Below, piece by piece: positions 2,330-63,604 of a stretch of 64,000 bases of DNA. Origin of the DNA: Chlorobiaceae bacterium (GTDB lineage Bacteria > Bacteroidota > Chlorobiia > Chlorobiales > Chlorobiaceae); NCBI GenBank assembly GCA_013334965.1, contig JAAXWO010000007.1, forward strand, positions 62,001-126,000, in the 5' to 3' direction. Numbering within the stretch: the first letter of the stretch is position 1; the number at the start of each line of letters is the position of its first letter. The position numbers and the translations under genes were made by a program. The notes below the pieces were generated by a model. It made no database searches. It had not been told where the DNA came from and saw only the letters and a list, made by a program, of their open reading frames with translations.

Positions 2330-3658
2330 ATGTCCAAAAGAGTCCACTTCTGGCTGCTGCTTGCCGCGCTTCTTTTGCCGGCATCGATCACGCAGGCAAA
2401 AAGCCCAGGCGATACGCCGAGGGATCCGCTTTTCATTGAAGCGTCGCTCGACAACAATAAACCGTGGGTCGGCCAGGAGATCCAGCTCACCTACACGCTC
2501 TTCTTCCGTGACATAGCCCCGAGGATCGAGGATAGAACCAAGCCCGAACACACCGGGCTCTGGGTACAGGAAATAAGTCCTGAAAACTATATCAACAGCA
2601 CTCCGGCCACTGTCAACGGAACAATGCTCAGGAAAGCCGTCGTCAAACAGCTCAGGCTTGTAGCGTTGCAAAGCGGGAGGCTTTCTGTCGCCAATTATCG
2701 CCTCGGATGCTACCTCCCGAAAAACAGGCAGTTCTCCCTCGACAGCCGTAACGATATCGAAACCATTTTGACTGCCCCTGCGGCTGTCATCGACGCCAGG
2801 CCGCTTCCCAAGCCCGCCCCGGAAGGCTTCAGCGGCGCCGTCGGCAGCCTTTCCGTCTCGGTTTCACCCGAAAACAGCAGGATTCATGAGGGAGAACCTT
2901 TAACGATCTCGATAACCGTCAGCGGCAAAGGCAACCTCAACGCGTTGCCTCCGGTTGCGGTCAACCTTCCGGAAGGATTGAGAAAGGACGCATCCGGAAA
3001 CCCCTCGCTACCAAAGGAGATGGCCGGGGGACAGGAGCAGTATGTAACGATACCGGTCACGCTGATGCCGGAAACAACCGGGACATTTCGATTCACCCCC
3101 GTTCGGCTGACAATATTCGATCCATGGAAAAGCCGTTACGAAACGATCGAATCAAAAGAGATCTCCGTCACGGTCATTCCCGGAAAAAGCCCTGCAAAGG
3201 GACCGGGCATATACACCCCTCCGGCAAAGCCATCACGGCAGTTGCAGCCTCCCTCCTCACTATTCATGATGGTCATGGCTGCCGCCGTCGTCATACTCAT
3301 CCTGGTCCTGCACAACCTGGGCGAAAAGAAGAAAAAACGAAATCCGGTTCACAGCGTCAATCAGGAGACCAAGAGCGTCCCTGCCATTCCGGAAAGGCAA
3401 TCGGCAGAGTCGTTGCGTTGCCAACTGTATGATGCGCTGAGGAAAATCGGGCTCCAGAACCCCGTGGGACTGACGTCGCGGGAGCTCAGGAAAAAGCTGG
3501 GAGAGCTCAAGGTAAAAGAAAAAACGACCGCATCGCTTCTGGATCTCCTTGCAAGGATCGACTACGCGATTTACGCGCCCGGCAAGACATCTGCCGACAA
3601 ACTCGACGCATTGAACAAAAGCGCGGAACAGATCATCTCAGACCTTTCGCGACGCTGA
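2330..3658 (+). CDS. BatD-like membrane protein
   Basis: A 442-residue protein with an N-terminal signal peptide (WLLLAALLLPASITQA), two or three immunoglobulin-like beta regions in the periplasmic part (for example SVSPENSRIHEGEPLTISI), one transmembrane helix around residues 325-345 and a lysine-rich cytoplasmic tail. This is the layout of the BatD/oxygen-tolerance family, usually found beside BatA/BatB von Willebrand proteins and MoxR ATPases; no such partners are seen here. ATG 2330 and GTG 2324 are both possible starts; GTG 2324 overlaps the proC stop. The function is not settled in the family. Confidence 0.7.
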   Translation: MSKRVHFWLLLAALLLPASITQAKSPGDTPRDPLFIEASLDNNKPWVGQEIQLTYTLFFRDIAPRIEDRTKPEHTGLWVQEISPENYINSTPATVNGTMLRKAVVKQLRLVALQSGRLSVANYRLGCYLPKNRQFSLDSRNDIETILTAPAAVIDARPLPKPAPEGFSGAVGSLSVSVSPENSRIHEGEPLTISITVSGKGNLNALPPVAVNLPEGLRKDASGNPSLPKEMAGGQEQYVTIPVTLMPETTGTFRFTPVRLTIFDPWKSRYETIESKEISVTVIPGKSPAKGPGIYTPPAKPSRQLQPPSSLFMMVMAAAVVILILVLHNLGEKKKKRNPVHSVNQETKSVPAIPERQSAESLRCQLYDALRKIGLQNPVGLTSRELRKKLGELKVKEKTTASLLDLLARIDYAIYAPGKTSADKLDALNKSAEQIISDLSRR

Positions 3659-3723
3659 TCCCCCGTAAAGCCGGAGCGGCCCTGTCAAAAGAAAAGTCAA
3701 AAACGCCGAAACACCGGGAAGGT

Positions 3724-4530
3724 TCAGCTTCCGGCCAGCTCCGGCAGATGAAGGGCAATTTCGGGATGATCGGTTATCAGGCCATCGGCGCCAAGCATCT
3801 TCATCCTTGCCATATCTTCCGTGCGATTGACCGTCCAGACGACAACCTTCGCCCCGAACCCATGAAGCGTTGAAAGCATCGCTTCGTCCACGAGATTCAG
3901 CTTCGGATTGACATACTCCGGCACGAACCCCGGCTTCCCGGGAAACGAATCGAGAACGACTGGATCCTCGACAAGCAGGCCATAGCACAAACCAGGCATA
4001 ATTTTTTTTGCTTCGGTGAGTATCCGGTCATCGAAAGACTGCAGCCGGACACGGTCTCCGAGACCGGACGCTGAGATCTCCCCGATAACAAGGGCAGCAT
4101 AATCCGATGGAGAGGGGTGTGCCTGGCCATCCCGTTCCGGCCATGATTTCACTTCGAGATTGTAGACCATTTCATCAGGCCGACCAATCTGTCGAAGATG
4201 CCCTTCAACCGATCGGAAAACATCTGAAAGCGTAGGACGTCCCGCCACGATCCTCTCCTGGAATGGAAATTCAGGAGAAACCGTGCCGCAATCAAGGCGG
4301 GCGATCTCCTCATAATCCATGGAAAAGAGATAGCGTCGAGACGAGGCGCCCCCTGCATCGGAGACGAACGCCCAGGGATCGTGGGAGACGACGATCCGGT
4401 GATCCCTGGAAACGACAAGGTCGAGTTCGATCACACGACAACCGAGGTCAGCCGCCTTGCAGAAGGCCTGAAGGGTGTTTTCGGGATAAAAAGCCCTCGC
4501 TCCGCGATGGGCCTGGATCTCAAAGGTCAT
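3724..4530 (-). CDS. ugpQ: Glycerophosphodiester phosphodiesterase
   Basis: Hydrolyses glycerophosphodiesters to glycerol-3-phosphate and an alcohol. The family motifs are in order: AHRGARAFYPENT near the N-terminus (metal and catalytic His, Glu-Asn), ELDLVVSRDHRIVVSHD about 30 residues later, LEVKSW in the middle, and a C-terminal VWTVN followed by GADGLITDHPE. At 268 residues it has the normal length. The start is placed at the ATG (4530) before TFEIQAHRG; an upstream extension to 4617 has no family match. It is convergent with the BatD-like gene. No signal peptide is seen, so the protein is probably cytoplasmic. Confidence 0.88.
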   Translation of the reverse strand: MTFEIQAHRGARAFYPENTLQAFCKAADLGCRVIELDLVVSRDHRIVVSHDPWAFVSDAGGASSRRYLFSMDYEEIARLDCGTVSPEFPFQERIVAGRPTLSDVFRSVEGHLRQIGRPDEMVYNLEVKSWPERDGQAHPSPSDYAALVIGEISASGLGDRVRLQSFDDRILTEAKKIMPGLCYGLLVEDPVVLDSFPGKPGFVPEYVNPKLNLVDEAMLSTLHGFGAKVVVWTVNRTEDMARMKMLGADGLITDHPEIALHLPELAGS

Positions 4531-4694
4531 AACGGCCGTAGGGTAAGAGGCGGGCCAGCCGAAACCTGAACGCCTGTCCGTTCCCGGACATCCGCCCGGG
4601 ACGCAGGAGAGGCGCAACCTGCCTGACCTGAAAAATAAAGAAGCCCATCAGATGATCAACGGTCCTGCGACAGCGCTATCGAATGATAACAGGG

Positions 4695-5009
4695 TCAGGA
4701 ACCTTTGTTGCCGTTTGATTGCCGTGTCGGCTTGGGCGCAGAGGATTTCTTGCTTCTTTTTTTCTGAAATTTTTTGCCTGCGGGTTTCGTGCCGCTGGCG
4801 GGGACAGGGCCGCTGGTGCCGTAGAGTCCGGTTGAGCCTGGGGGGCCGTTTTTGCGCGCTCTGTTGAATTTGTTCTTACGATACTTCTTTTCAAGATCGG
4901 CGTAAGGACTTGGCGGGTCGGGCGAGGTATTGAAATTATTGTAATTCGGCTCGTCGATAACCTCGTCAACATCATCCAGGACCACGTCAGGATGAATCTT
5001 ATTGTACAA
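4695..5009 (-). CDS. Hypothetical basic protein, doubtful
   Basis: An open frame of 104 codons whose only available start is TTG (an in-frame TAG lies three codons before it). The product has an acidic N-terminal part (DVVLDDVDEVIDEP) and then a lysine/arginine, proline and serine-rich tail. I do not recognise it. The abrupt start and disordered tail would also fit the C-terminal remnant of a larger protein. No clear ribosome site is seen. It could equally be a chance frame. Confidence 0.3.
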   Translation of the reverse strand: MYNKIHPDVVLDDVDEVIDEPNYNNFNTSPDPPSPYADLEKKYRKNKFNRARKNGPPGSTGLYGTSGPVPASGTKPAGKKFQKKRSKKSSAPKPTRQSNGNKGS

Positions 5010-5250
5010 GTTGGTCTATCTTTTAGTTCACAAAACCTAAGCGGTACTCAGCAAAGGAGCGCTTTCGGCAAGGGGTTAGTAATTTACCAATTTGATGATA
5101 AAAAACAAGAGTATGTTTTTTGGGTCGTCGAAGGGCCATTTGCCATGAAGATTCAACAATCAGCAAGCCCGCAGGATTGCCATTGATTGTTAGTCGGTCA
5201 AATCGTAAATTTGTAGTCGATACCAAAAAAACCCTAATCTGGAGATCACC

Positions 5251-5430
5251 ATGGACCTTCGCCGCCTGATCCTGGCAATCATTTTGCCGCCTGCCGCCGT
5301 CATGAACAAGGAAGCCGGAACGATCATGCTCACCGGCCTGCTCACGCTGCTCGGCTGGCTCCCCGGCGTCGTCTTTGCGCTGTTCCTGATCTCGCAGGAA
5401 AAATGCTGCTGTAAAGAGAGCTGCTCATAA
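5251..5430 (+). CDS. Pmp3/YqaE-family small membrane protein (UPF0057)
   Basis: A 59-residue peptide, too short for many gene finders. It starts at an ATG preceded by a good GGAG ribosome site (5241-5244). The sequence begins MDLRRLILAIILPPAA, continues with a short loop and a second hydrophobic helix (LLTLLGWLPGVVFALFLI), and ends in a cysteine-rich tail, EKCCCKESCS. Two helices with PP in the first and PG in the second are the hallmarks of the Pmp3/YqaE proteolipid family, linked to membrane potential and stress tolerance. The Cys cluster at the C-terminus is unusual. It stands alone between AT-richer flanks. Confidence 0.85.
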   Translation: MDLRRLILAIILPPAAVMNKEAGTIMLTGLLTLLGWLPGVVFALFLISQEKCCCKESCS

Positions 5431-5512
5431 AATCTGGTCCCAGTTACCGATCGCCTTCACCGTGCAACGATGATAAACGGTCGTGGCAGATAATGAGTAC
5501 TGCAGAAAACGG

Positions 5513-5547
5513 AAAGGTCCTGTCATATCAGAAATAACAGGACCTTT
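5513..5547. terminator. Inverted repeat, possible terminator
   Basis: The 11-base arms aaaggtcctgt and acaggaccttt are separated by 13 bases. No long T run follows on the plus strand. It lies between the Pmp3-like gene (plus) and the antitoxin gene (minus), so it could end either transcript. The remaining bases up to 5671 show nothing else. Confidence 0.5.
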
Positions 5548-5671
5548 CGATGTATGGTTTCCATCCATTCGTTTAAAGCTTCACATTCACCAGCATTGAC
5601 TGAGAGATAATTGTAAGGTTAGATGCCCTCAAATCCTCGTAGGCCTATCCTTTTCTATGTTCTCTCCATGG

Positions 5672-6781
5672 TCAACCGTTATGGCGATCAAGCTTAATCG
5701 GTTTAATAAAATTTCGGTATCTGCTGAACGGCAAAATTTTATTGTGATGGAATCTTCCGATAATCATGGCCGGATGGGTTCCGAACTTTCGGGCAAAATC
5801 CAAAATGTCCTGCTCTTTAAATGAGCCAAACTGCAGTACCTCCTGCTCCTCTTCCTTCGAAAATGTCCACTTGACTGCAAAATCATCAGCTTCTATCTCT
5901 TTATCATCTTTTTCCCCATCAGCTTGAGCGCACTCGATAGAGATATGCTTCTTGCCATGCAACAGGATATGTCCCGCTTCATGAAAAAAGGTGAACCAGA
6001 ACCGATCATTCTGCTTGTACCGTGCTGAAAGCTGAATCAGTGGAGTGTCGTCATTTAACCATCTTGTCGAACCGTGAATCGGCGCTTTCGGCAAAAACGG
6101 AGTATACACCACCTTGACTCCGGCATTCCGGCAAATCTCCTGCAGTTGCTGGAAAAAATCATCTGGATGATCCGCCATCACCTGTTTGATTACCGGTAGA
6201 CTTGCTGCAAACTTCTTTTTATCGAATGGAGGCACGTCCAGTTTCAGTGACTCATGTTCACCCTGCCTAAGCCATGCGGAAATTGCAAATGGCTCCCCGA
6301 AATGGGCCAACGAAATCCGAAAACTGACTTTCAGTTTCCGGGACAGATAATACTCTTCCCACGCCTCAGGGCTGGACATCGAGAAGAATTCCAATAACAG
6401 GCCTGCCAACTCATCCGGATTACCTGTTTTTGGTAACCATCCGAATGCGGTCATCTCTTTGATCGGAAACCTGCGAACCCATGCGTATGCATTTGCAAGC
6501 AATTCACTTCGTTTTACCCGTGCAACGGCCTCATCGTAGAGTTGCTGGCGTTTCAACCAGAAATTTGCCGGGATATGAAGAACGGATTCGAATTGCACCG
6601 CCATATCCGGGGTCAAGGAACTCTCTCCATTGATCACCTTGACAATCGTCTGTTCCGGTTTGCCAGTCCGTACGGCAAACTCCTTCTGGCTCATACCCAG
6701 TTCACCGAGTTTTTCACTCAAGGTCACGCCAGGATGCGTCACCGTCTGAGGGGCATATTCATTGCGCGTTGCCATCATCAT
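5672..6781 (-). CDS. HigA-type antitoxin fused to ImmA/IrrE metallopeptidase
   Basis: A 369-residue protein of two parts. Residues about 15-80 form an XRE/HigA helix-turn-helix (MSQKEFAVRTGKPEQTIVK, then GESSLTPDMAVQFE). The C-terminal half holds HEAGHILLHGKK, an HExxH zinc-peptidase site of the ImmA/IrrE (DUF955) family. Classic HigA is about 100 residues, so this is the long form in which the DNA-binding antitoxin carries a protease. The gene follows the toxin with a 4-base ATGA overlap, the HigBA order (toxin first). It probably represses its own promoter. Its base composition is more AT-rich than the core genes, consistent with transfer. Confidence 0.85.
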   Translation of the reverse strand: MMMATRNEYAPQTVTHPGVTLSEKLGELGMSQKEFAVRTGKPEQTIVKVINGESSLTPDMAVQFESVLHIPANFWLKRQQLYDEAVARVKRSELLANAYAWVRRFPIKEMTAFGWLPKTGNPDELAGLLLEFFSMSSPEAWEEYYLSRKLKVSFRISLAHFGEPFAISAWLRQGEHESLKLDVPPFDKKKFAASLPVIKQVMADHPDDFFQQLQEICRNAGVKVVYTPFLPKAPIHGSTRWLNDDTPLIQLSARYKQNDRFWFTFFHEAGHILLHGKKHISIECAQADGEKDDKEIEADDFAVKWTFSKEEEQEVLQFGSFKEQDILDFARKFGTHPAMIIGRFHHNKILPFSRYRNFIKPIKLDRHNG

Positions 6782-7119
6782 CTCTCCTTATGGTAATTCG
6801 TAATCTCGATTACGTCCACTCCTCTGATTTCAACCCAGACATACTGTCCATCTGGATTTGTGGGAATCGGATCTTCATGCGGGGTAAAAATCAGTCGGTA
6901 TGGTTGATCAAGGTCACATGACCATTGACCTTTACGATTTTCTTTTAACTCATGGTAGTGACCGGGAAGGTGACGGACATCTTCAAGCGTGTCTGCAGCC
7001 CTGAGATCATCAAGGCGTTGCTTGAAGACCTGAGCCCTTTTAGAGCCAAGCTTGCGTATTGCCAAACGATCTTCGTTCGCGTATTTTTTCAGGTCTTTAT
7101 CCCTAAACGAGATGTCCAT
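6778..7119 (-). CDS. RelE/ParE-superfamily toxin (HigB-like)
   Basis: 113 residues with the basic, compact pattern of RelE/HigB toxins: SFRDKDLKKYANEDRLAIRK at the start, RHLPGHYHELK in the middle and a C-terminal QWSCDLDQPYRLIF strand, followed by VIEITNYHKER. HigB-type toxins cleave mRNA on the ribosome. Its stop overlaps the start of the antitoxin gene by four bases, so the two are translationally coupled. The 60 bases upstream are very AT-rich and probably contain the autoregulated promoter. An insert around residues 85-96 (HEDPIPTNPDG) is longer than in classic HigB. Confidence 0.85.
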   Translation of the reverse strand: MDISFRDKDLKKYANEDRLAIRKLGSKRAQVFKQRLDDLRAADTLEDVRHLPGHYHELKENRKGQWSCDLDQPYRLIFTPHEDPIPTNPDGQYVWVEIRGVDVIEITNYHKER

Positions 7120-7177
7120 TCTTAATATAAATAATTAACACTAAATATTCACTATAATATCAAGCTATAAGAACAAG

Positions 7178-7530
7178 TCACAGAATTACAGGGCTGAGAC
7201 AGGTAGTTTCTATGGCATAAGTACCTTGCAGATTTGGCCTGCCGTCTCGGGCTTTTCGCTTTCTTCCGGCTCGCTGTTGGGCTTTTTCGATCTCTATTCC
7301 AAAGCCGACAAGACCATTCTCGAAGTCAGAGGGACACGTCTGCTTGATCTGCCAGATATGGGAACAGACAAAACTCATGGTGAGCATGTGGCAGGCGAGG
7401 AAGGTGAACAGATATTTGCCTTGGGTATAGTTCGTCTCGAAGGTGTCTCATAGGAACTCAATGTATTCATCTGTTCCTTCGGAGTCTTGAAGGAGAGCAG
7501 CAGGTAGTTGCAAGTTCGAAGGACTTCCAT
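7178..7530 (-). pseudogene. Broken gene downstream of the SIR2-like gene
   Basis: Directly after the SIR2-like stop there is a GGAGG and an ATG at 7530 opening MEVLRTCNYLLLSFKTPKEQ. The similarity-like reading then moves to another frame (EYIEFL, stop, DTFETNYTQGKYLF) and continues through ACHMLTMSFVCSHIWQIK to the stop at 7178. The in-frame TGA falls where TGG (Trp) would fit. So I infer a frameshift plus a nonsense change in a former cargo gene of the restriction operon. I do not recognise the family. The text after about 7300 may be out of frame again. Confidence 0.5.
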
Positions 7531-7532
7531 TA

Positions 7533-8564
7533 CTACCTCCATACATGGGCAGACTCGCTATCGTAAAAATCGACGATGAGTTCTCTTTTTCCTGTGCGCG
7601 CCAATCTCATTGCGTTTGCTCTCTGTGCAATCATTTTGTTCGTGGCTGATGCGGGATCACCATACAAGCCGACGAAAATATGAGAAAGCTTCCCTTTCTC
7701 TATGAGCCGCAGGTAATGTTCGTCATTTGCAGCTAAAGAATGACCGTAGATAAAGAGGCATTTCTGAATCTCTTGAAAACTCCTATATGCCTTTGCGAGA
7801 TAGTCGCTGTGCCGAACTCTTTCTAGCTTTTCTGCGCTTGAACCTTCTGCTACGAATAGAGGAAAAAAGTTTCTACTAAGGGCTTCGCGAATTTGCTCGA
7901 TAAGACGAACACCAGTGCGATTCCATGTGTATTTCTGTATCTCCGTTCCTGAATCAAAAACATGAAGTGCGCCATGCAGAAACCACATATTCTGATCATG
8001 ACTTTGGCTTGATTCCCATACTACGTATTCAGAATCAATGCCAGAGTCAATATCGCTTTGTGACGTTCTAAACCCATCGTCGGAATGAATATCGGTGCGG
8101 TTCTCGCGATGCATGTGGGTCCAGTAGAGTAGCAAGTCATAATTGAAAGTGTAGGTCGTAGTAAAGTTGTCCAAAAATCGCTGACAGGCTGCGTACTCAT
8201 CATCCGTAATGTCGCCTGGCAACGCAGGGTGACTTTGAGCGATGGTCTCGACAAGTAGTTCCTTAAGCTCGTCGGCGTCACTGCGCATCGCGTCAGCCTG
8301 TGTACTGGTCACGCCATACCCTGCGGCAATAGATGCTGAATCGCGTAGCACCTTGATAACACGCTCAAAGTCAGTGGTATGAAGAACCGAAAAGGCTGAC
8401 TTTGCTGAGTCCGGCAATGTGGAAAAATCTGCCTGCTCAAAAAGCTTGTCATACCGGAAAATGTCTGGGCGACAGGCAATGCTGAACCCATTACCAAGCA
8501 GCAGATGGCGCTTGGAATAACAAGCTGACGCTTCTATAGCTTCAGCGAAAGTCATAATGGTCAT
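7533..8564 (-). CDS. SIR2-like protein, DUF4917-type
   Basis: A 343-residue protein, last intact gene of restriction island 1. Motifs resemble those of SIR2-like NAD-binding proteins in order: LLLGNGFSIA (residues 21-30), TFNYD (139-143), FLHGALH (195-201) and YGHSLAANDEH (273-283). I recall this set from the DUF4917 family. SIR2-like domains in phage defence usually deplete NAD+; that role here is inference. Its ATG overlaps the stop of the hsdM-hsdS fusion by four bases, so it is made together with the modification enzyme. It is more AT-rich than the surrounding core genome. The start could also be the internal ATG at 8555. Confidence 0.75.
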   Translation of the reverse strand: MTIMTFAEAIEASACYSKRHLLLGNGFSIACRPDIFRYDKLFEQADFSTLPDSAKSAFSVLHTTDFERVIKVLRDSASIAAGYGVTSTQADAMRSDADELKELLVETIAQSHPALPGDITDDEYAACQRFLDNFTTTYTFNYDLLLYWTHMHRENRTDIHSDDGFRTSQSDIDSGIDSEYVVWESSQSHDQNMWFLHGALHVFDSGTEIQKYTWNRTGVRLIEQIREALSRNFFPLFVAEGSSAEKLERVRHSDYLAKAYRSFQEIQKCLFIYGHSLAANDEHYLRLIEKGKLSHIFVGLYGDPASATNKMIAQRANAMRLARTGKRELIVDFYDSESAHVWR

Positions 8565-11098
8565 GTCAATCCTCCGTCAGTAGGCGGCTCATTTTTGCTC
8601 CATATGCGGGCAATAGTGGATTGAATTTTTTGCTCGAAACGGGTAATCAACTCACGGTTGGCAGCCACCAGCGCTTGCTCAGCTTCGATCTCCGCCACAA
8701 TTACTTGTTGCAAAGCAACATCGTCTGGAATCGGAATCGGGATTCTGTTCAACGCCTCTTGGTTGAGCTTTGGCTGTGCAGCACCGGTAACGAACTCCTC
8801 AATGGAAATGGAGTTGAGATAGACCTCCACGAATTTCTGTGTTGCGGATTCTGAGAATTTCAACACATGAGCGTGATTGTTGACCCAACATTTACCAGAT
8901 ACTGAGAATGCAATTGGCGTTGAGCGAGCGAGTAAGTTCGCGCCATCTTCCGAAATGAGAAGAATGTCTTCGTCAAAAATGAAATCAGCAACGGAGTCAA
9001 CAATCCCCGATGCACCGTAATAAGGAAACGAACCTTCCTTTCTATCGCCTTTTGTGATAGGAACTCGCAGCGAATCCATATTTACTGAAAGGCTCCCAAG
9101 ATTGCGCTTCGGCCAGTCAGGGTGGATGGGAATGTGAGGGCGATAGTGGTCGAGAACTTCGCGGGCGCCATTGATGACTTTCTGGTAGCCCTCGATTTCC
9201 GCCACGATCGCCTTCTGCACTTCCAGCGGTGGCAGGGGAATTTGGAGTCCGGAGAGGAAACTGCGAGTCACTCCTCGAACACCAATTCCCTCCGCGTTGC
9301 GCTCAACCACTTGGGCGATGTGGTGTGCAGCTATATGGATGAACTCAGGAGCGAGGCGCTCATTGTCTTTCGATACAAGTGCCGTCAGGTCTTGATTGAT
9401 GGCGTAATCGTCGTTTGCGAATGCGAATTTCCCGACTGATACGCGGGTAATTATGATGGTTGATCCTTTGGGAGCGACTCGTGTGGACGTTTCTTCAACG
9501 GCCTTCTTGGAAATGAGTTCATAAGCGATGATAAGTCCGCGGTCGTCGATGTGCTTCGATGAAATCCATTTCACCGAGCCGTTTGTCCAATACGACTTTT
9601 CCTGTTTGGACGGGGTGGCTCCGCAGATTAGATCGCACACTTCGCCAATTGGGACGTTCGGGAAGAACGAAGCGCGTATATCGCCCTCCCGATACCGCTC
9701 ACCGCTGAGATTGTAGTCGCCATTCTCGGTTATCTTCTCCTTTGGCACGATCAGCAGGAAGGATCGGTCCGATCCGACTGATCCACCCGATTCGCCCGAT
9801 CTTCCTGATTCTTCCTGCTGATCCGACTCATCCGGCAGATTGGACCGATCGCTGGAGCCGGTGCGCAGGGCCTGAAGGTATTCGGCAAGCTCAGCCTGAA
9901 CTTGCGGGAGGTCGTTCTTCTCGATGGCACGGCGCTGGGCTCCGAGGCCGAAGCCGTCGTTCTCCACTTTGAAGAAGGCGATAGTGTCACTCTGGCGTGC
10001 CAGGGATTTATCGAGGATCAGGATACTGGTCTTCACCCCGGAATAGGGATTAAAACAGCCCGCCGGTAGCGATACCACTGCGACGAGAGAGTTTTCGACA
10101 AGCATTTTCCGCAGTTCTTTGTAGGCTGTCTGGCTTTGGAAGATGATGCCCTCGGGCACGATGATGGCGGCACGTCCGGTGGGCGTGAGGTGCTCGGCCA
10201 TGTAGTCCACGAAGAGGACTTCGCTGCGCTTGGCCTGGATTGAGAAACGCTTGTGAGGCTTGATGCCGCCTTTCGGGGACATGAAGGGCGGGTTGGCGAG
10301 AATGACGTCGGCGAATTCGTTCCAGCGTTCCTCGGAGGTGAGTGTGTCATATTCAAAAATATGCGGATCGGTGAAGCCGTGCAGATAGAGGTTCACCAGA
10401 GAGAGGCGCACCATGTCTGGCGAGATGTCGTAGCCCTTGAAGTTCCTGGCGAGGCGCCCCTTTTCATCGGGAGTCAATGTGCTGTTCCCTTTTGCGTCGG
10501 TATTGGCTCGCAGGATGTGCTTGTAGGCTGAAATCAGAAAACCGGCAGTACCGCAGGCGGGATCAAGAATGGTCTCGTTTTTCTGCGGAGCGATCACCTC
10601 AACCATGAAATCAATGATGTGGCGAGGGGTGCGGAACTGGCCGGCATCACCCTGGCTGCCCAAAACGCTGAGCAGATACTCAAACGCATCGCCAAGACGC
10701 TCGCTGTGGTCATAGCTGAATTCGTCGATGATTTTGAGGAAAGCTTTGAGAGTCTCGGGGTCGCGGTAAGGGAGATAGGCATTCTTGAAAATATCACGAA
10801 AAAGTGCGGGGATACCGGGGTTTTCGGGCATCCTGGCAATGCCTTCGCTGTAGAGGCCGAGCATCTCGTGACCGCCAAGACTGCGATCCATGAGTTTGGC
10901 CCAGCCGTAGCGGGCGAAGTCGCCGGTGAAGAACTTTCGTTTGCCGCCAAGTTCCTCGGACTCGGCGTCCATGTCGTCCATGAACTTGTAAATGAGTGCA
11001 ATGGTGATCTGTTCAACCTGACTCTTGGGGTCAGGCACTTTTCCGACGAGAATGTCGCGGGCGGTGTCAATACGGCGTTTGGTATCGGTGTCGAGCAT
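8561..11098 (-). CDS. Type I restriction HsdM-HsdS fusion
   Basis: A single 845-residue chain joining the adenine methyltransferase and specificity subunits of a type I system. The HsdM part has the N-terminal helical domain, the SAM motif DPACGTAGF (179-187) and the catalytic NPPF (269-272). Residues about 412-447 are a Ser/Gly/Asp/Arg linker encoded by a GATC-rich repeat. Then come two HsdS target-recognition domains, the first from about 483 (PIGEVCDLICGATPS), the second from about 665 (NLGSLSVNMDSLRVP), each followed by a conserved helix (LPPLEVQKAIVAEIEGYQ; VALQQVIVAEIEAEQ). HsdS is normally a separate protein. The start is set at the family-typical MLDTDTKRRI; an ATG at 11116 is also in frame. 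Confidence 0.85.
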   Translation of the reverse strand: MLDTDTKRRIDTARDILVGKVPDPKSQVEQITIALIYKFMDDMDAESEELGGKRKFFTGDFARYGWAKLMDRSLGGHEMLGLYSEGIARMPENPGIPALFRDIFKNAYLPYRDPETLKAFLKIIDEFSYDHSERLGDAFEYLLSVLGSQGDAGQFRTPRHIIDFMVEVIAPQKNETILDPACGTAGFLISAYKHILRANTDAKGNSTLTPDEKGRLARNFKGYDISPDMVRLSLVNLYLHGFTDPHIFEYDTLTSEERWNEFADVILANPPFMSPKGGIKPHKRFSIQAKRSEVLFVDYMAEHLTPTGRAAIIVPEGIIFQSQTAYKELRKMLVENSLVAVVSLPAGCFNPYSGVKTSILILDKSLARQSDTIAFFKVENDGFGLGAQRRAIEKNDLPQVQAELAEYLQALRTGSSDRSNLPDESDQQEESGRSGESGGSVGSDRSFLLIVPKEKITENGDYNLSGERYREGDIRASFFPNVPIGEVCDLICGATPSKQEKSYWTNGSVKWISSKHIDDRGLIIAYELISKKAVEETSTRVAPKGSTIIITRVSVGKFAFANDDYAINQDLTALVSKDNERLAPEFIHIAAHHIAQVVERNAEGIGVRGVTRSFLSGLQIPLPPLEVQKAIVAEIEGYQKVINGAREVLDHYRPHIPIHPDWPKRNLGSLSVNMDSLRVPITKGDRKEGSFPYYGASGIVDSVADFIFDEDILLISEDGANLLARSTPIAFSVSGKCWVNNHAHVLKFSESATQKFVEVYLNSISIEEFVTGAAQPKLNQEALNRIPIPIPDDVALQQVIVAEIEAEQALVAANRELITRFEQKIQSTIARIWSKNEPPTDGGLT
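9757..9850. repeat. GATC-rich degenerate repeat, copy in hsdM-hsdS linker
   Basis: Short units built on GATC/GATT with YCNGATC or GATCNGA spacing (for example ggatcggtccgatccgac) stand in tandem. In frame they encode the Ser-Asp-Arg/Gly-Ser linker between the methyltransferase and specificity parts. Similar arrays occur at 11118-11155, 11284-11307 and 11508-11559. Confidence 0.65.
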
Positions 11099-11117
11099 TG
11101 AGTTTCTTTCTTTCATT

Positions 11118-11155
11118 GGTTAGATCTGACAGATCAGGCGGATCGGACAGATCTG
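11118..11155. repeat. GATC-rich degenerate repeat between genes
   Basis: The string agatctgacagatcaggc and what follows belongs to the same family of GATC-containing units as the arrays inside the neighbouring coding regions. Here it fills the gap between the four-helix-bundle gene and hsdM-hsdS and ends close to the stop of the former. Confidence 0.6.
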
Positions 11156-11920
11156 TTAAATAGTGATAATGCCTTTACAGTCGGGGTAACCGCTGCAGCC
11201 CCAGAATTGTCTACCCTCGTTCTTGCCTGCTTTGGCGGTACGCAAGACCATGGGGTTACCGCACTTTGGGCATTGAGGAATTTGATCAGACGGATCGGTC
11301 TGATCGGTTTTGCGGCGTTGCCGTTCGATCAATCGAGCGGTGGCGAGCTGTTCGCTGTAGCCGCCACCTTCGACAAACGCCTTTTCAAGGCCGGCAATCT
11401 GCCGGTCGAGCAGGTAATTGGTCTGGTTGATCAGGCAGATCAGGGCATTGACCCGTATGGCAGGATCGGCATGTTCAAGCCATGGTGCGTAAAGTGACCA
11501 GCGTTCCTGATCAGTCAGATCGGTCAGATTGGACCGATCTGACTGATCTGACCGATCTTTTCTGAACTGCTTCGGCTGGTCGCGGACAGCTCTCGCTTCT
11601 CCACAATCGGGCGTCCACTGGGTGAGGCGGCGGTGGCGCAGGAAATCTTCGTAGTCGAGCAGGAGTTCTTCGAGGCTGGCACGCGCGACGTTGATCAGAC
11701 GAAGTTCAGTTTGTGAGGATGTAGCTGAGGCACGGCTACCTTCAGCGATATTCTGCCTTCCGGAGCGGGCGGCCTGTACCATCTGATCGGTCAGACGAGA
11801 GCGGGGATCGATGAATTTTTCGCAGAACCAGACGGTGGCGTCATAAATGATGGTTGCCGTCTGAAAACTGCAGGTGTCGCGATAGCCGCCGCTTGGTCTG
11901 AACTTTGACATATCCGGCAA
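11156..11920 (-). CDS. Four-helix-bundle protein with zinc-ribbon tail
   Basis: A 254-residue protein of unknown job, between hsdR and hsdM. The N-terminal half (about 15-105) matches the four-helix-bundle (S23-like) family: IYDATVWFCEKFIDPRSRLT, then QMVQAARSGRQNIAEGS and LRLINVARASLEELLLDYE. The C-terminal 38 residues are a topoisomerase-type zinc ribbon with CPKC and a CSGYPDC pair, a fold that can bind nucleic acid. Between them are two acidic/polar stretches of Ser-Asp-Arg/Gln encoded by GATC repeats (near residues 121-138 and 205-212). It starts 5 bases after the hsdR stop. Such proteins recur next to type I systems; a role in DNA handling is inference. Confidence 0.75.
   Translation of the reverse strand: MPDMSKFRPSGGYRDTCSFQTATIIYDATVWFCEKFIDPRSRLTDQMVQAARSGRQNIAEGSRASATSSQTELRLINVARASLEELLLDYEDFLRHRRLTQWTPDCGEARAVRDQPKQFRKDRSDQSDRSNLTDLTDQERWSLYAPWLEHADPAIRVNALICLINQTNYLLDRQIAGLEKAFVEGGGYSEQLATARLIERQRRKTDQTDPSDQIPQCPKCGNPMVLRTAKAGKNEGRQFWGCSGYPDCKGIITI
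11284..11307. repeat. GATC-rich degenerate repeat, copy in four-helix gene (3' part)
   Basis: Three GATC units in 24 bases, encoding a Thr/Ser-Asp-Gln/Pro stretch just before the zinc ribbon. Confidence 0.55.
11508..11559. repeat. GATC-rich degenerate repeat, copy in four-helix gene (middle)
   Basis: About seven units of GATCNG(A/T) or its complement in 52 bases. In frame they encode an acidic/basic Asp-Arg-Ser-Asp-Gln type stretch between the helical domain and the rest of the protein. Confidence 0.6.
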
Positions 11921-11925
11921 GTTCC

Positions 11926-14469
11926 TTATGCGGCAAATTGATTCAAGGAAACATAGTCCTTGATGTATTCAGGAACGAGCGTGCGATAGAGCTGAGGCAC
12001 GGCTCGGAAGTCATGGGTAGTGAAGAACGGATTGGTCGCCAGATCGGTGAACTGTTTGCTGTCGATGATGTCGCGTACCCTGTTGCTGGTCACGTAGGCC
12101 TTGAAATAGGTCTTGATGGCCGGTATGGCTGATGGCGGCTCGGGCACGTGGTCGGCGACAAACTTCGAGAACTCCTCCTCCAGCAGTTCATCCTTGGACT
12201 TGAAGCGAGGGATGAGGCCGAAGACCTTCTCCAGGATTTCGCGCAGGGTCAGGCGACGATCCACGGCGGCGGCTTTGCGCAGTTTGTCGAGGGTGTAGTA
12301 CTCCTCGGGCTTGTCGAAGATCTCGCGGTTCACGTAGTCGATGACGCGGTCCCACTGCCCGGCGTCAACTGCGGCGGCGACGGTGTCATCTGCGCGGATC
12401 ACATCTTCAAACTTCTCGAAGAACATGCGGTCGATTTTCATGCCATCAGCAGTGATCTCCTCAACCCGCATCGAAGCCAGGATGTCGGCGCCGAGGTGCT
12501 CATAGGTTCCTCCGACCACCACAGGGCCTGTTGTATCACCTCCGTTGTCGCTCTTCTTGCCTTTGGGTGGCGGAAGCTTCAGCACTTCGTCGTAGTTGAA
12601 CTCTTCCTCGAAGTATTCGCAGTTGGCGAAGAAGTCAAACAGCTTGAAGGAGGTTTTGATAGGCTTTTGTAAGCTTTCCCTGATGGTCTCGTCGAAAAGC
12701 AATTCGCGGAAGTCGTGCTTGCGGGTGCCGCGTCCCTTGATCTGGATGAAGTCGGTCGGCGAAAAGATCGGACGGAAGAGGCCGATGTTGAGGATGTCGG
12801 TACAGTCGTAGCCGGTTGTCATCATCCCGACCGTCACGCAGATTCGCGCTTTGCTGGTTTTGTAGGTGGGGATGAAGTTGCCGGAGCCGAGCAGGTTGTT
12901 GTTGGCGAAGTTGATGGTGAATTGCTGGGCGTCAGAAATTTGCGAAGTCACCTGCACGGCAAAGTCGGACTGGTATCTGGCCGGAAACATTCGATCGGCC
13001 ATCTGATTGAGTATCTGGGCAAGCTTGGCGGCGTGGTTCTGGCTTACGGCGAAGATGATCGACTTGCCGATCTCGCCACTGACCGGGTCACGCATGGCGT
13101 TTTCCAGAAACGTCTTGCACAGAAGCTGGTTGGTAGTGTCAGCAAAGAAACGCTTCTCGAACTCGCGCTGTTTGAAGGCCTGCTGCTGGTCCTCTCCGGC
13201 GTCATCGGTGAACGTGACAACGAAGCCCTCTTCGGAAAGCAATGTGGTGGTGACTTCGGTACGGGCATCAACCACGGTAGGGTTGATCAGGAAACCCTCC
13301 TTCACACCATCAAGCAATGAGTAGCGGAAGGTTGGCTGGCTGTTCTCGCAGCCAAAGGTACGGTAAGTATCGAGTAACAAGCGCCGTTCAGCCTCGCGAG
13401 GGTCGCGGGTGCCTGGGTTTGAGCTGTCGAACCGGCGAAGATAATCGCGTGGAGTAGCGGTAAGGCCAAGCTTGTAACCGATAAAGTAGTCGAACACAGC
13501 ACGGGCATTGCCGCCGATCGAGCGATGCGCTTCGTCGGATATGACAAGATCGAAGTCGGTCGGTGAGAAAAGCTTCTGGTACTTGTTGTTGAAAAGCAGG
13601 GATTGCACTGTGGCGACGACAATTTCAGCCCGTCGCCAATCGTCCCGGTTCTCCTTGTAGATCACTGTCTGAAAGTCGGCGGAGAGCAATGCTGCGAAGG
13701 CCTTTTTTGCCTGTTCCTCAAGCTCAAGGCGATCGACGAGGAACAAAACACGCCGTACATTGCCCGAACGGAGAAACAGCTTGATCACGGCGGCTGCGGT
13801 CAGGGTCTTGCCCGTACCGGTGGCCATCTCGAAAAGGAATCGGTCTTTGCCGTCGCCGACTGCGACCTGAAGGCTGCGGATTGCCTTGAGCTGATAAGGC
13901 CGGAGAAAGCGCAGCTTGTTGGCCTGGATGTATCCGGGGCGCTCCGCTTCGTTCCGCCACCCGGCCTCTGATTGGTAGTTCGGGTGCTGGGTGCAAACGA
14001 TGTAGTCCTCGCCGACCAGCTCTTCGATCAGTCGCTGCGGATTGGGCATGACCTTCTTGTAGCCGGTGACGGAGTCCGGTGTCGGAAACGAGGTGATAAC
14101 ATATGGGTTGCCACGTTCGAGATCCCAGAAGAAGTGCAGGTTGCCGTTGGATAGAATAACGAAGCGGCAGTTCTGGGACCTGGCATATTTACGGGCCTGC
14201 TCTTTGCCGACAAGGGGGTTCTTGGCCTCCGCCTTGGCTTCGAGGACGATCAGCGGGAAGCCCCGATTATCAAGAAGAAGGAAATCGACGAAGCCGCGTT
14301 CAAGCTTTTCGAAGTTCTCCCCAAACGAGTCCAGTACGGCAGGCCTGAGTGCTACTGACGGTTCAAGACGGATGTTCGCCGGAGCATCATCTTCAGAAAA
14401 GAAACGCCATCCCGAGGCTTCCAGGAGCTTGTTGATCTTGATACGCGCTGTGGCCTCTTTATCAGGCAT
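11926..14469 (-). CDS. hsdR: Type I restriction enzyme HsdR (EcoEI-like)
   Basis: An 847-residue motor/nuclease subunit. The N-terminal PD-(D/E)xK nuclease reads VDFLLLDNRGFPLIVLEAK (D62, E77, K79). The helicase follows with Walker A (ATGTGKT, near 216-222), ISDEAHRS as motif II and a C-terminal RecA lobe with SIIFAVSQNHAAKLA and FIQIKGRGTRKH. The last 200 residues correspond to the EcoEI-type C-terminal domain that contacts HsdM. It translocates DNA and cuts unmodified sites together with the HsdM-HsdS fusion downstream. It is first in the operon. The length is shorter than EcoKI HsdR but normal for this subgroup. Confidence 0.9.
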   Translation of the reverse strand: MPDKEATARIKINKLLEASGWRFFSEDDAPANIRLEPSVALRPAVLDSFGENFEKLERGFVDFLLLDNRGFPLIVLEAKAEAKNPLVGKEQARKYARSQNCRFVILSNGNLHFFWDLERGNPYVITSFPTPDSVTGYKKVMPNPQRLIEELVGEDYIVCTQHPNYQSEAGWRNEAERPGYIQANKLRFLRPYQLKAIRSLQVAVGDGKDRFLFEMATGTGKTLTAAAVIKLFLRSGNVRRVLFLVDRLELEEQAKKAFAALLSADFQTVIYKENRDDWRRAEIVVATVQSLLFNNKYQKLFSPTDFDLVISDEAHRSIGGNARAVFDYFIGYKLGLTATPRDYLRRFDSSNPGTRDPREAERRLLLDTYRTFGCENSQPTFRYSLLDGVKEGFLINPTVVDARTEVTTTLLSEEGFVVTFTDDAGEDQQQAFKQREFEKRFFADTTNQLLCKTFLENAMRDPVSGEIGKSIIFAVSQNHAAKLAQILNQMADRMFPARYQSDFAVQVTSQISDAQQFTINFANNNLLGSGNFIPTYKTSKARICVTVGMMTTGYDCTDILNIGLFRPIFSPTDFIQIKGRGTRKHDFRELLFDETIRESLQKPIKTSFKLFDFFANCEYFEEEFNYDEVLKLPPPKGKKSDNGGDTTGPVVVGGTYEHLGADILASMRVEEITADGMKIDRMFFEKFEDVIRADDTVAAAVDAGQWDRVIDYVNREIFDKPEEYYTLDKLRKAAAVDRRLTLREILEKVFGLIPRFKSKDELLEEEFSKFVADHVPEPPSAIPAIKTYFKAYVTSNRVRDIIDSKQFTDLATNPFFTTHDFRAVPQLYRTLVPEYIKDYVSLNQFAA

Positions 14470-57933: not shown

Positions 57934-60897
57934 TCAGTAATATTGCCTGATATATCCATACGCCTTGTCGAACAGTTCCTGATCCTTGACCTGATACTTT
58001 ACGTAAATCACTTTGCGCAAAGCCTTCTGGACATCGCGCTCTCCGGATTTGGTGTTCTGCCAGCCGGGAAAGCGAACCAATCGCACGATTTCGTCGATGT
58101 CAGTGACGATCCGTTCGATCACCACTGGCGTATTGCCACTCTTCACCTCAGCAAACAGTTCGGTCAGGGCCGCTTTTGCCTTTGACTGTTCATCAACAGG
58201 AGCCACCTGCTTCTCCGCCTGAACGACCTCCCTTGCCAGTGTCAACAGCTCCTTAAGAAAATCAAGGCTGTGGAGCAGACCCTGCTCATGCCGTTCCTTC
58301 AATTTTTCAAGTCGCTCACCCAAAGCAACAAACTGTGGATTGTCCTTGTGTTTGCGTAAACGGGCAATAAGCTTGATCTCGATCTCTTTGGATTTTTTGC
58401 GCGGATCCCTGGCTTTGAGCAAACCTTCGAGCACCTCGGCATCCATCACCAGGGTATCCAGATCATCACGAACGGTTTCCAGATGCACGTTCTCATGTAC
58501 CAGCTCGACGGTCTTGGCCCCCAAGGCATGCCAGAGCAGTTTCCCGTTGCCACTCGGCGGCCTCACCGACTCATAGACCTGTGAGAGCCACGTGTAATCG
58601 GTTTCATAGAGCCTGAGGCATGTATCGGGCGAAAGCGCCTCCCACAAGCGGGAAAGTATCGAGTATTCCGCCGCGAACCTGTCCCTCGTTTCGTTATTCG
58701 GCAGGCAGTCCTGAGCAGCGATCAATCCTTCATATCCTCCGACAGTGCGATCAACACCAGGGAAAAACGCCAGGCATTTTACCATCATGCCGGGCATCTC
58801 CTTTTTCAGACCATCCAGGTTTGTGATGACCTTCTGCACCGCTTTTTCATCGAAATCGAGCGCCGTTGCCACATCGTCGAAAATGCCCAGATAGTCCACA
58901 ATCAGTCCATGCGTCTTGGCGGGATAAACGCGATTGGTACGACAGATGGCCTGGAGCAGGCTGTGGTCCTTCATCGGTTTGTCGAGGTACATCACCTGCA
59001 ATATTGGTGCATCAAAACCGGTCAGCAGCTTTGAGGTGACGATCAGGAACTTGAGTGGATCGTTCTGGTCCCGGAACCGGTCAAGAAGCTTCTCTTCCGC
59101 ATCCTTGCTCAACTTCCACTCAGCATACACGTCTGACTTGCCCCCCTGTGTATGCATCACAATTGCGCTGGCTTCAGGTCCAACCAGATCATCTAAAGCC
59201 TTTTTGTACAGAACGCAGCACTCCCGATCGAACGCAACCACCTGGGCCTTGAAGCCGTTTGGTTCAACCTTCTCGTGGTAGTGCCTGACAATGTGCTGGC
59301 ATATCGCATTGACCCGAACCGGAGCCTTGATCAGCACCGCCATTTTGGCTGCCCGCTTTGCCAGATCGTCACGATCCTCCTCACTCAACTGATCAGTCAT
59401 CTGTGAATAGGCCTCATCAATAGCAGCCTTGTCAATCTTCAACCGCACATCCACCGCCTCGAAATGCAACGGCAGAGTTGCCTTGTCCCGAATCGACTCC
59501 TGAAACGAGTAGCGGCTCATGTAGCCCTGCTCGTCCTCGTCCGCACCGAAGGCCCAAAAGGTGTTGCGATCCCGTTTATTGATCGGGGTACCCGTCAGTC
59601 CGAAGAGAAAAGCGTTCGGCAGCGCATCACGCATTTTACGACCCAGATCCCCCTCCTGGGTACGGTGCGCCTCGTCCACCATCACGATGATATTCGAGCG
59701 ATCATTCAGGCGACCATCCGCTTCGGCGAATTTGTAAATGGTGGTGATGATGATCTTGCGGGTATCCGCCGCAAGCAGGCTTTGCAGCTCCTGCCGATTC
59801 GACGCGCCGATCATGTTCGGGATGTCGGCGGCATTGAAGGTGGCGGTGATCTGTGTGTCTAAGTCGATACGGTCCACAACGATCATCACCGTTGGGTTGC
59901 CCAGCTTGCCATGCATCCGCAACTTCTGCGCTGCGAACACCATCAGCAGAGACTTTCCGGAACCCTGGAAATGCCAGATCAACCCCTTCTTCGGATAACC
60001 TTTGACCACACGGGCCACCATCAGATTGACCGCCTCGTACTGCTGGTAACGGCTGATAATCTTGATGCGGCGATGCTTCTTGTCGGTGGCAAACAGAGTA
60101 AAATTCTGCAGAATATCCAGCACCACCTGGGGACGCAGCATGGAACGAAGAGAACTCCGTACGCCGGCCAATGAACCTTCGTTCCGGTCTTCACCTTCAT
60201 ACCACGGCCCCCAGATATCTATCGGCATGCGCACCGAACCGTAGCGATAGCACTTCCCTTCAGTGGCGAATGAAAAAACGTTGGACACAAACATCTGCGG
60301 CACGCTCTTTTCGTAGCCATTATGGATGTCGCTTGCTGCATCCACCCAGGTGACCGCCGGACGTACCGGAGTCTTGGCTTCGCCTATCACCAGAGGAATA
60401 CCGTTGACCAACAGCAGAATATCAAATCGGCGCCCTCCCTCCTTGACCGGATAGACCCACTGGCTTGTCACCACATAATCGTTGTTGCCCAGATCATCGA
60501 AATCGATCAACCGTACCGAAGCGTGCTCACCGTTCTCCCCGAATGGCATCGACTTTTCCCCACGCAGCCATTCGGCAAACATTTCGTTGGCCCGCACCAG
60601 ACCTTCGCTCTGGACCGAAAGTGGTATGGCCCGCAGCCGGTAGAGCACCTCGTCTGCACGGTCAGGCTGTTCCTTGATTTCAGGGTTCAGACGGATCAGA
60701 GCCTCACGCGCCATGGATTCCACAAGCACATCTGAGTACTGCCGCGGCAGCTCCTCGGCATTCACAAAGCGCCATCCTTTGACCTCGCTTCCATAGCTGG
60801 CGTGTTCGTCGGAGACAATGTTCACCGACACACTGCCAGCGAGAGTATCGAGGACCATCTGTACGATGGTGTTTTCTTCGTTGAAAAGGATCATCAT
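57934..60897 (-). CDS. hsdR: Type I restriction enzyme HsdR, island 2
   Basis: 987-residue motor/nuclease. The nuclease reads FDILLLVNGIPLVIGEAK (D159, E173, K175). The helicase has WHFQGSGKSLLM (Walker A-like) and VMVDEAHRTQEG, then LLTGFDAPILQVMYLD and QAICRTNRVYPAKTHGLIVDYLG in the second lobe. The family is a different branch from island 1's HsdR. The ATG at 60897 overlaps the stop of the reverse transcriptase gene by four bases, so HsdR is made as the last gene of the hsdS-retron-hsdR unit. An upstream start at 60909 adds only four residues. Length is normal. Confidence 0.9.
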   Translation of the reverse strand: MMILFNEENTIVQMVLDTLAGSVSVNIVSDEHASYGSEVKGWRFVNAEELPRQYSDVLVESMAREALIRLNPEIKEQPDRADEVLYRLRAIPLSVQSEGLVRANEMFAEWLRGEKSMPFGENGEHASVRLIDFDDLGNNDYVVTSQWVYPVKEGGRRFDILLLVNGIPLVIGEAKTPVRPAVTWVDAASDIHNGYEKSVPQMFVSNVFSFATEGKCYRYGSVRMPIDIWGPWYEGEDRNEGSLAGVRSSLRSMLRPQVVLDILQNFTLFATDKKHRRIKIISRYQQYEAVNLMVARVVKGYPKKGLIWHFQGSGKSLLMVFAAQKLRMHGKLGNPTVMIVVDRIDLDTQITATFNAADIPNMIGASNRQELQSLLAADTRKIIITTIYKFAEADGRLNDRSNIIVMVDEAHRTQEGDLGRKMRDALPNAFLFGLTGTPINKRDRNTFWAFGADEDEQGYMSRYSFQESIRDKATLPLHFEAVDVRLKIDKAAIDEAYSQMTDQLSEEDRDDLAKRAAKMAVLIKAPVRVNAICQHIVRHYHEKVEPNGFKAQVVAFDRECCVLYKKALDDLVGPEASAIVMHTQGGKSDVYAEWKLSKDAEEKLLDRFRDQNDPLKFLIVTSKLLTGFDAPILQVMYLDKPMKDHSLLQAICRTNRVYPAKTHGLIVDYLGIFDDVATALDFDEKAVQKVITNLDGLKKEMPGMMVKCLAFFPGVDRTVGGYEGLIAAQDCLPNNETRDRFAAEYSILSRLWEALSPDTCLRLYETDYTWLSQVYESVRPPSGNGKLLWHALGAKTVELVHENVHLETVRDDLDTLVMDAEVLEGLLKARDPRKKSKEIEIKLIARLRKHKDNPQFVALGERLEKLKERHEQGLLHSLDFLKELLTLAREVVQAEKQVAPVDEQSKAKAALTELFAEVKSGNTPVVIERIVTDIDEIVRLVRFPGWQNTKSGERDVQKALRKVIYVKYQVKDQELFDKAYGYIRQYY

Positions 60898-62078
60898 GTT
60901 GTCTCCCACGGCACATCAAGTTCACTTAATCGTAATTTAAATTCCGCCCATCGCTTTATATCTACATCCTTCACGAAAGCTACTAGCCCGGACAAATGGT
61001 TGTAGAAACCATAAGCTGAATAAAAATTCTCGTGCTTAGCCGTATTGACCAAGCCGTATTTATTAGCTGCGTACAAGAGCCGATCAATACGCATATATGT
61101 TTCTTTCGATAAGCGGGGTGAATCACCGTCAACGAGCAATCCTAGTACAAGTTTTTTTGAGCCTGGACCGGCGATGCGAGTTTTCTTTTCATTTTCTAGA
61201 AACCGGGCTTTGCGAATGCGATGAACGATGGCACGGTGAATATCCCCTCTACTCATCTTAGAGGGCAGGTCATACGCGGATATGGAGATATCGTCCGCAT
61301 AACGGGTATAGACAAATCCGAGTTGAAAGGCGTATTCATGGAGAGATTCATCTAAGTGGCGAGCGGCAAGATTGCTAAGCATAGGGCTGGATGGCGCGCC
61401 CTGAGGGAGAACACCAGTCCTTTGACTGTGCAAATATGGCTTAAATTTCAGGTACCCAGAAAAGGCATCATCTAATAGTTCAACATTATCAAAATTTGGC
61501 TTTTCAGAGTAGGAAGCTCTTAAGTATCTTTTGAAAGAAATGGGCAATCTTGTGGTCGTGCAAAGGCGAGCAATTTCAAATGACAAGAGTTTTCTGTAGC
61601 CAAGACCATTAAATATTCTATAGACATCAACTTCACTAATTTCGTAAAAGAAATCTTTGAGGTCGTATTGAAATAGCCATCTTGCACCACAATGTTGACT
61701 CGCACACTGACGGATACCTCCTGAGGAATGAAATGCGAAAGCTGCCGGATGGGGTTTAACCCCGCATAGAATTTCCTTGTGTAAATATTGCTGAACTCTG
61801 AATAATTCAGGAGTAACCGCATGGATGAAACGCCGTCCACCCGATCGCTTAGCAACTGCATACATCCGATAGTTAGCGCTCTCTCTTTGACGGTTCACGG
61901 TCTCGTGCAAGATTTCCGTTTCAACTCCTACGATCTTGGCAAGATGTCCAAGCGTAAAAATGACTGGAAGACCGGAGCTCCTCAATTGGGCCGCATAGTC
62001 CCGTAGACTAGCTGCGGTCTGCATGTCACGCTGATTTTTGGCGTTCTCATAAAGGTGATGTACTGACCAGGCATCCAT
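60894..62078 (-). CDS. Retron-type reverse transcriptase
   Basis: 394-residue RT. Fingers/palm motifs: RWLFQYDLKDFFYEI (first Asp, D139), GVLPQGAPSSPMLSNL (222-237), catalytic YTRYADDISIS with YADD (260-263), and a C-terminal VLGLLVDGDSPRL (311-323) like the VTG region of retron RTs. The NAxxH motif of retron RTs becomes CASQH (125-129). There is no maturase or integrase domain, so this is neither a group II intron nor a retrotransposon enzyme. Its ATG abuts the TGA of the upstream gene, and its TGA overlaps the hsdR ATG. A candidate msr-msd RNA lies just upstream. Confidence 0.87.
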   Translation of the reverse strand: MDAWSVHHLYENAKNQRDMQTAASLRDYAAQLRSSGLPVIFTLGHLAKIVGVETEILHETVNRQRESANYRMYAVAKRSGGRRFIHAVTPELFRVQQYLHKEILCGVKPHPAAFAFHSSGGIRQCASQHCGARWLFQYDLKDFFYEISEVDVYRIFNGLGYRKLLSFEIARLCTTTRLPISFKRYLRASYSEKPNFDNVELLDDAFSGYLKFKPYLHSQRTGVLPQGAPSSPMLSNLAARHLDESLHEYAFQLGFVYTRYADDISISAYDLPSKMSRGDIHRAIVHRIRKARFLENEKKTRIAGPGSKKLVLGLLVDGDSPRLSKETYMRIDRLLYAANKYGLVNTAKHENFYSAYGFYNHLSGLVAFVKDVDIKRWAEFKLRLSELDVPWETT

Positions 62079-63461: not shown

Positions 63462-63604
63462 ATACCATCCTCCGTACAACGAGGATTTGCAAATATAACT
63501 GATGACTGCATATTAGGAAGTAATAACACACAAATGCTTTGAGTTGCTGTGATAAGATCTTCAAAGTAACTGGCGTGCTCGATAATTTTTTCTCCTTTAA
63601 TCAT
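63458..63604 (-). CDS. Possible 48-aa small ORF upstream of the effector
   Basis: A 48-codon frame whose ATG lies inside the last codons of hsdS and whose TGA overlaps the effector ATG by four bases. It begins MIKGEKIIEHASYFEDL and ends NPRCTEDGI. I do not recognise it. The coupling on both sides suggests that translation passes through, but the frame may exist only because hsdS and the effector are spaced by it. It has no good ribosome site of its own. Confidence 0.35.
   Translation of the reverse strand: MIKGEKIIEHASYFEDLITATQSICVLLLPNMQSSVIFANPRCTEDGI

Follow-up and report, generated by a model that had tools for sequence, protein, structure and literature searches.

Why should a type I restriction-modification (RM) operon carry, as its last intact gene, a gene for a protein of the DUF4917 family, and what could such a protein do there? 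The question arises from the window, that is, the whole stretch of 64,000 nucleotides of DNA analysed here, in which this gene lies at positions 7533-8564 on the minus strand. The answer that we favor, at a probability of roughly 0.7, is that DUF4917 is a single-domain enzyme with a SIR2 fold, likely an abortive effector that cleaves NAD+, coupled to hsdMS in the operon. The DUF4917 and PDC-S21 libraries give the family without fold or mechanism, and in the literature searched there was one passing mention of DUF4917, with no SIR2 assignment and no biochemical or phage data; the SIR2 assignment and the nesting in RM operons are added by the present analysis. The idea of suicide controlled by restriction is itself not new: Makarova et al. 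(2012; PMC3506569) described an association of predicted Sir2 enzymes with type I RM, as well as their occurrence in AbiH, and drew on the example of PrrC in suggesting that RM systems control such toxins.

The operon and its last gene

The operon runs on the minus strand from 14469 to 7533, and its genes are, in order, hsdR, a gene for a four-helix-bundle protein, hsdMS and DUF4917. HsdR (11926-14469, minus strand; 847 amino acids) is an EcoAI-like restriction/translocase subunit, with matches to NF046051 (E = 1.1e-64, below the cut-off of that profile) and ResIII (9.1e-38). It is followed on the same strand by a protein of 254 amino acids with a four-helix bundle and a zinc ribbon (11156-11920; TIGR04258, 9.7e-18; Zn_ribbon_Top1, 1.4e-10), no homologue of which was found in the related operons examined, and then by a fused type I HsdM-HsdS of 851 amino acids (8561-11116; N6_Mtase, 3.5e-48; Methylase_S, 3.3e-32). 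GATC-rich near-repeats at 9770-9850 and 11510-11565 encode low-complexity stretches rich in Ser, Asp, Gln and Thr, located both in the HsdM-HsdS linker and in the four-helix-bundle protein.

The DUF4917 gene itself is intact, begins with ATG and encodes 343 amino acids. Its product matches Pfam DUF4917 (PF16263) over residues 21-342 with E = 1.8e-75 and the PADLOC candidate PDC-S21 with E = 4.2e-124, and "DUF4917 family protein" is the annotation given to its relatives. The stop of hsdMS and the start of DUF4917 share the ATGA at 8561-8564 (minus strand), an arrangement for translational coupling, and a GGAGG is found about 5 bases upstream of the DUF4917 ATG. A first-pass annotation, made by eye, had already called the product a DUF4917-type protein and its gene one that overlaps hsdM-hsdS by 4 bases, and on both points it was right. 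Directly downstream, at 5672-7119 on the minus strand, there are genes for a HigB toxin and a fusion of HigA with an M78 peptidase, the latter of which matches PD-Lambda-2_B (E = 4.6e-30).

The window also includes a second type I RM operon, with hsdR at 57934-60909 and hsdS from 63597. Between these two genes, at 60894-63479 on the minus strand, lies a retron-like pair that matches RT_III-A (E = 4.5e-148) and PRTase_III-A (E = 2.9e-74), so that the retron which the first reading had placed in this other island does exist and is of type III-A. The island continues past the end of the window (minus strand, 3207-11972 of locus L126, G000:C15:124001-140000) with genes for an AAA_13 protein, an AlbA_2/HATPase_c_4 protein, a DUF4062/HATPase_c_4 protein and two HsdM proteins, one intact and the other interrupted by a frame shift. 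AAA_13 is the Pfam family that includes the PrrC/RloC-type ATPases.

A predicted SIR2-type fold and its putative active site

What kind of protein is DUF4917? An AlphaFold (AF2) model, made from an alignment of 43 sequences that comprised the window protein and loci fetched by similarity, has a mean pLDDT of 91.1 and a pTM of 0.89, with every residue at 70 or higher. Foldseek gave 17 matches in the PDB at E ≤ 1e-3, of which 13 are SIR2 chains of Sir2-HerA and four are human SIRT2; the best, Sir2-HerA 8sub, has E = 1.9e-9, probability 1.00 and a TM score of 0.61. On this model, DUF4917 is predicted to have a SIR2-type fold, with the Rossmann-type core that binds NAD in sirtuins. Profile comparisons point in the same direction. 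Alignment of DUF4917 to SIR2_2 proteins by hhalign scored 97.3% (E = 1.8e-11) and paired NYDLLLYW with TTNYDLL.E, LHGALHL with LHGS, and GHSL..D.H with GYS..D.H, and HMMER profile matches to the Sir2-HerA chains 8w9l (E = 0.0022) and 8j4u (E = 0.033) also pair NYD and HG with SIR2 motifs. Thus the motifs that had been recognized by eye can be aligned to those of SIR2_2 and Sir2-HerA, and the structure prediction that had been named as a check on them finds its nearest folds in Sir2-HerA and SIRT2.

Four motifs can be placed on the minus strand of the window. GNGFS, residues 24-28 (8481-8495), is conserved in two family alignments and would correspond to the GAGxS nucleotide-binding loop of sirtuins. 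In the profile alignments to 8w9l, 8j4u and SIR2_2, N141-Y142-D143 (8136-8144) falls on the catalytic Asn motif, which is TTNYD in Sir2-HerA, and H197-G198 (7971-7976) on the catalytic His-Gly, while GHSLAANDEH, residues 274-283 (7716-7745), aligns with the G(Y/F)S..D.H motif of SIR2_2. In the 43-sequence alignment, no variation is seen at N25, G26, S28, N141, Y142, D143, H197, G198, G274 or H283; a few family members differ at the Asn, which is Cys in L026. N141 and H197 are, by alignment, the putative equivalents of the sirtuin catalytic Asn/His pair. DSR2 (N133/H171) and ThsA retain such a pair at their NAD+ sites, and its mutation abolishes NAD+ cleavage by DSR2 (PMC11087589). The four-Cys zinc module of sirtuins is absent from the window protein, which has just four Cys (15, 31, 127 and 269) and no CxxC pairs, and no second or separate sensor domain is visible in it, the DUF4917 match spanning the protein.

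Similarity at the level of single sequences is low. The window protein gave no match to Pfam SIR2_2 (PF13289) even at an E limit of 10, and 12 of 33 DUF4917 relatives match that profile weakly (best, 1.4e-4); a phmmer search of the PDB with the single window protein also gave no match. AbiH has a GNGF(S/D) start and FNY(T/D), HG and GHS..D motifs like those of DUF4917, and was considered as the nearest family for its GNGFS, but was rejected on profile scores: the AbiH profile (PF14253) has no match in the window protein and scores weakly in nine of the 33 relatives (best, 9.5e-4), and hhalign gave 60% and 8.8e-5 over 106 C-terminal columns. A match to RavA_C (E = 0.015, 25 residues) and two to de novo helical proteins in the PDB (E down to 0.0008) cover short or helical stretches and were judged to be due to chance.

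Does a SIR2 fold necessarily mean NAD+ cleavage? The chemistry could be another one, such as ADP-ribosylation of a target, nuclease activity, or action on another NAD-related substrate. The first motif of DUF4917 is GNGFS, not GAGxS, a divergence common to AbiH, and Sir2 defence proteins were once proposed to be ADP-ribosylating toxins or nucleases (PMC3506569). However, DUF4917 retains the Asn and His used in NAD+ cleavage, and its nearest folds are the SIR2 subunit of Sir2-HerA and SIRT2, so we regard another chemistry as unlikely. Preferring an NAD+-cleaving enzyme, we infer NAD+ cleavage and abortive infection from the fold, from the residues, and from what is known of DSR2, ThsA and Sir2-HerA.

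Among known systems, the closest in fold is Sir2-HerA (Nezha; E. coli 8sub/8su9/8uae, 8wld), which has the same fold and the same order of motifs, GxGxS, NYD and HG. In contrast to its SIR2 subunit, with which it is 13-14% identical, DUF4917 is shorter (343 versus about 400 amino acids) and has no adjacent gene for a HerA ATPase. Its neighbours in the window are the hsd genes upstream and, downstream, the wreck of a gene called X here and the HigBA-like genes, and its partner, if any, would be HsdRMS. DSR1/DSR2, ThsA of Thoeris and SIR2-pAgo are likewise SIR2 effectors with a catalytic Asn and His, but DUF4917 has neither the C-terminal sensor or SLOG domain nor a ThsB or pAgo partner.

DUF4917 in type I operons of other genomes

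Is the linkage to RM a peculiarity of the window? The four nearest relatives of its DUF4917 are 90% (L002), 77% (L003), 75% (L004) and 72% (L005) identical, and come from beta-proteobacteria where the record is named. In all four, DUF4917 adjoins the same HsdMS, with HsdR present wherever the contig reaches, so that the gene has stayed in the same operon throughout the window's clade of five members. Within the window's own genus, none of 20 other members has DUF4917; therefore, the window genome has probably acquired the gene.

With this clade counted in, relatives occupy type I operons in six different arrangements, which amount to at least five gains or losses; overlaps with hsd genes are frequent and measure 1-8 bases. 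The window's relatives have hsdR-hsdMS-DUF4917-X (hsdMS-X-DUF4917 in L005). The order is M-RhuM-S-DUF4917-R in L007, L053 and L055, where DUF4917 overlaps hsdR by TGATG or ATGA; R-S-DUF4917-M in L124, with an 8-base overlap with hsdS and ATGA with hsdM; R-M-S-DUF4917 in L125; DUF4917-M-S-FRG-R on a Rhizobium plasmid; and M-YhcG-S-R-DUF4917 on a Methylobacter plasmid, where the genes are about 550 bases apart. A family tree built from 69 sequences requires the RM label to change five times, and well-supported branches force no fewer than four of these changes. Relatives of DUF4917 have joined type I operons several separate times. The link to neighbouring hsd genes is thus seen in all four nearest relatives and again in further independent type I operons; on both points that had been named as able to refute it, the fold and the neighbours, the interpretation of the first reading is supported. 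Some operons that nest DUF4917 have other genes of interest as well: a FRG-domain PDC-S15 protein is nested in one (L013:14128-15393) and a YhcG PD-(D/E)XK nuclease in another (L011:5965-7062), and downstream of a third there is a second SIR2_2 protein of 1272 amino acids (L007:15103-18921; E = 9.5e-15).

Gene X deserves attention here. In the window, just downstream of DUF4917 (7280-7527, minus strand), it survives as a wreck that has lost its last two thirds and is disrupted by a frame shift and an in-frame stop; tblastn with X of L004 found 74.6% identity over 63 amino acids and 68% over 19 amino acids in another frame. X of the relatives has about 245 amino acids, a weak HEPN_RiboL-PSP match (0.0044) and an RNDxAH motif, and its putative HEPN nature rests on that match and motif because its AF2 model is poor (pLDDT 47). 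It directly follows DUF4917 in L003 and L004 (in L002 its start does) and precedes it in L005. Paracoccus (L120) and genome G734 (L123) have an hsdR-hsdMS-X operon without DUF4917, and X of L120 has the same 4-base coupling as DUF4917 of the window. Thus X would seem to be the older resident and DUF4917 inserted cargo, and the exchange of X and DUF4917 strengthens the reading of this position as a cargo slot. Since X fills the coupled slot in relatives that lack DUF4917, the overlap by itself is no proof that DUF4917 and hsdMS work as a pair.

With X already a wreck next to it, could DUF4917 of the window be a decaying passenger too, or an accessory or regulatory partner of the RM enzyme with no catalysis of its own? 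This is very improbable, given that the gene is intact, its active-site residues are invariant, and the family occurs widely in the absence of RM. The window DUF4917 is under purifying selection, with a dN/dS of 0.08 against the 90% identical L002.

Solo copies and mobile settings

Most DUF4917 genes stand alone, on plasmids and in P2-like prophages and integrons, and have no common partner. Of 395 genomes from the window's phylum, four have the gene, as do 15 of 399 Pseudomonadota; these 15 include G396, which was chosen as a centre, and one degraded match, the other 13 being clear matches. Among these 13 (G396 left out), two have hsdM beside DUF4917. RM linkage is a minority state of DUF4917, and because most copies are solo, RM is not needed for the function of the family. 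The earlier claim of coupling to the modification gene therefore holds for the overlap, which is real, but coupling is confined to a single sub-clade and a small number of independent captures.

Solo copies are often in defensive or mobile company. In Klebsiella, DUF4917 lies next to genes of retron Eco8 and of an ABC-three-component system; in Vibrio it is near Hhe and in Aliarcobacter beside a TIR gene, and some copies are in integron-like arrays. In five P2-like prophages (L045, L047, L048, L050 and L051), a DUF6232-DUF4917 cassette is inserted between a baseplate gene and a tail completion gene; this site is not the one between gpA and gpQ that has been described as a defence hotspot (PMC9122126), and a search of 5,426 E. 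coli genomes did not find the cassette of L048. The window DUF4917 had no match in the phage genomes of INPHARED or, in a single-protein scan, in viral contigs; an alignment-based scan of the viral contigs gave 43 DUF4917 loci. A structure search of BFVD with the model found nothing significant.

These settings lead to the strongest competing explanation, to which we give even odds: DUF4917 would be a self-contained abortive gene with its own sensing of phages, which hitch-hikes in RM operons, where the overlap serves matched expression and RM neither senses nor silences it. The many solo copies without a common partner, the P2-like copies as cargo beside DUF6232, and the slot interchangeable with X are all in line with it. 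Nevertheless, several independent captures lie within hsd operons and overlap a neighbour on one side or on both, which is more than mere vicinity, and retention in the same operon by the whole of the window's clade also argues against simple hitch-hiking.

How might DUF4917 work with restriction?

An abortive SIR2 enzyme in an RM operon would act in two layers. DUF4917 would be made by translational coupling to hsdMS, and HsdRMS would, as the first layer, cut unmodified phage DNA. If phage growth goes on or RM is disabled, DUF4917 would, as the second layer, cleave NAD+ or a related nucleotide with N141 and H197 as its Asn/His pair, consume NAD+ and abort the infection.

What might hold such an enzyme in check? 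PrrC, whose gene is nested in the type Ic operon EcoprrI, offers a precedent: it is silenced by the linked enzyme and freed by Stp of T4 (PMC2610378, PMC3506569). DUF4917 resembles it in that a toxin-like gene has its place inside a type I RM operon, in some relatives between hsdS and hsdR. Silencing and release of DUF4917 by HsdRMS, like those of PrrC by EcoprrI, would be plausible though speculative: HsdMS(R) would bind and silence DUF4917, and anti-restriction factors or disruption of RM would free it, as the SIR2 counterpart of PrrC/EcoprrI. The orders M-S-DUF4917-R and R-S-DUF4917-M with their overlaps and the repeated gain of the RM link fit this proposal. On the other hand, PrrC is an ABC-NTPase tRNA anticodon nuclease while DUF4917 has a SIR2 fold with neither NTPase nor anticodon nuclease domains, and solo homologues manage without RM; we hold gating by RM to be possible, in a tentative sense. 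It is rather doubtful whether this can be extended to a whole class, in which SIR2 NADase guards, silenced by type I enzymes and freed when phages inhibit or disrupt them, with NAD+ depletion as output, would have been assembled several times from a stand-alone effector, the slot after hsdMS being a cargo bay for DUF4917 or the HEPN-like X.

Perspectives

With a predicted fold and a testable active site, DUF4917 (candidate PDC-S21), a widespread family without a name, becomes accessible to experiment. Its operons, in which a SIR2 protein stands where a PrrC-type tRNA nuclease would, are compact natural settings for testing the proposal of 2012 that restriction systems bring along suicide genes and keep them under their control. 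That unrelated type I operons have repeatedly gained the effector, and that it is swapped with X, suggests a modular, built-in backup to restriction, which may halt the cell once a virus has evaded cutting.
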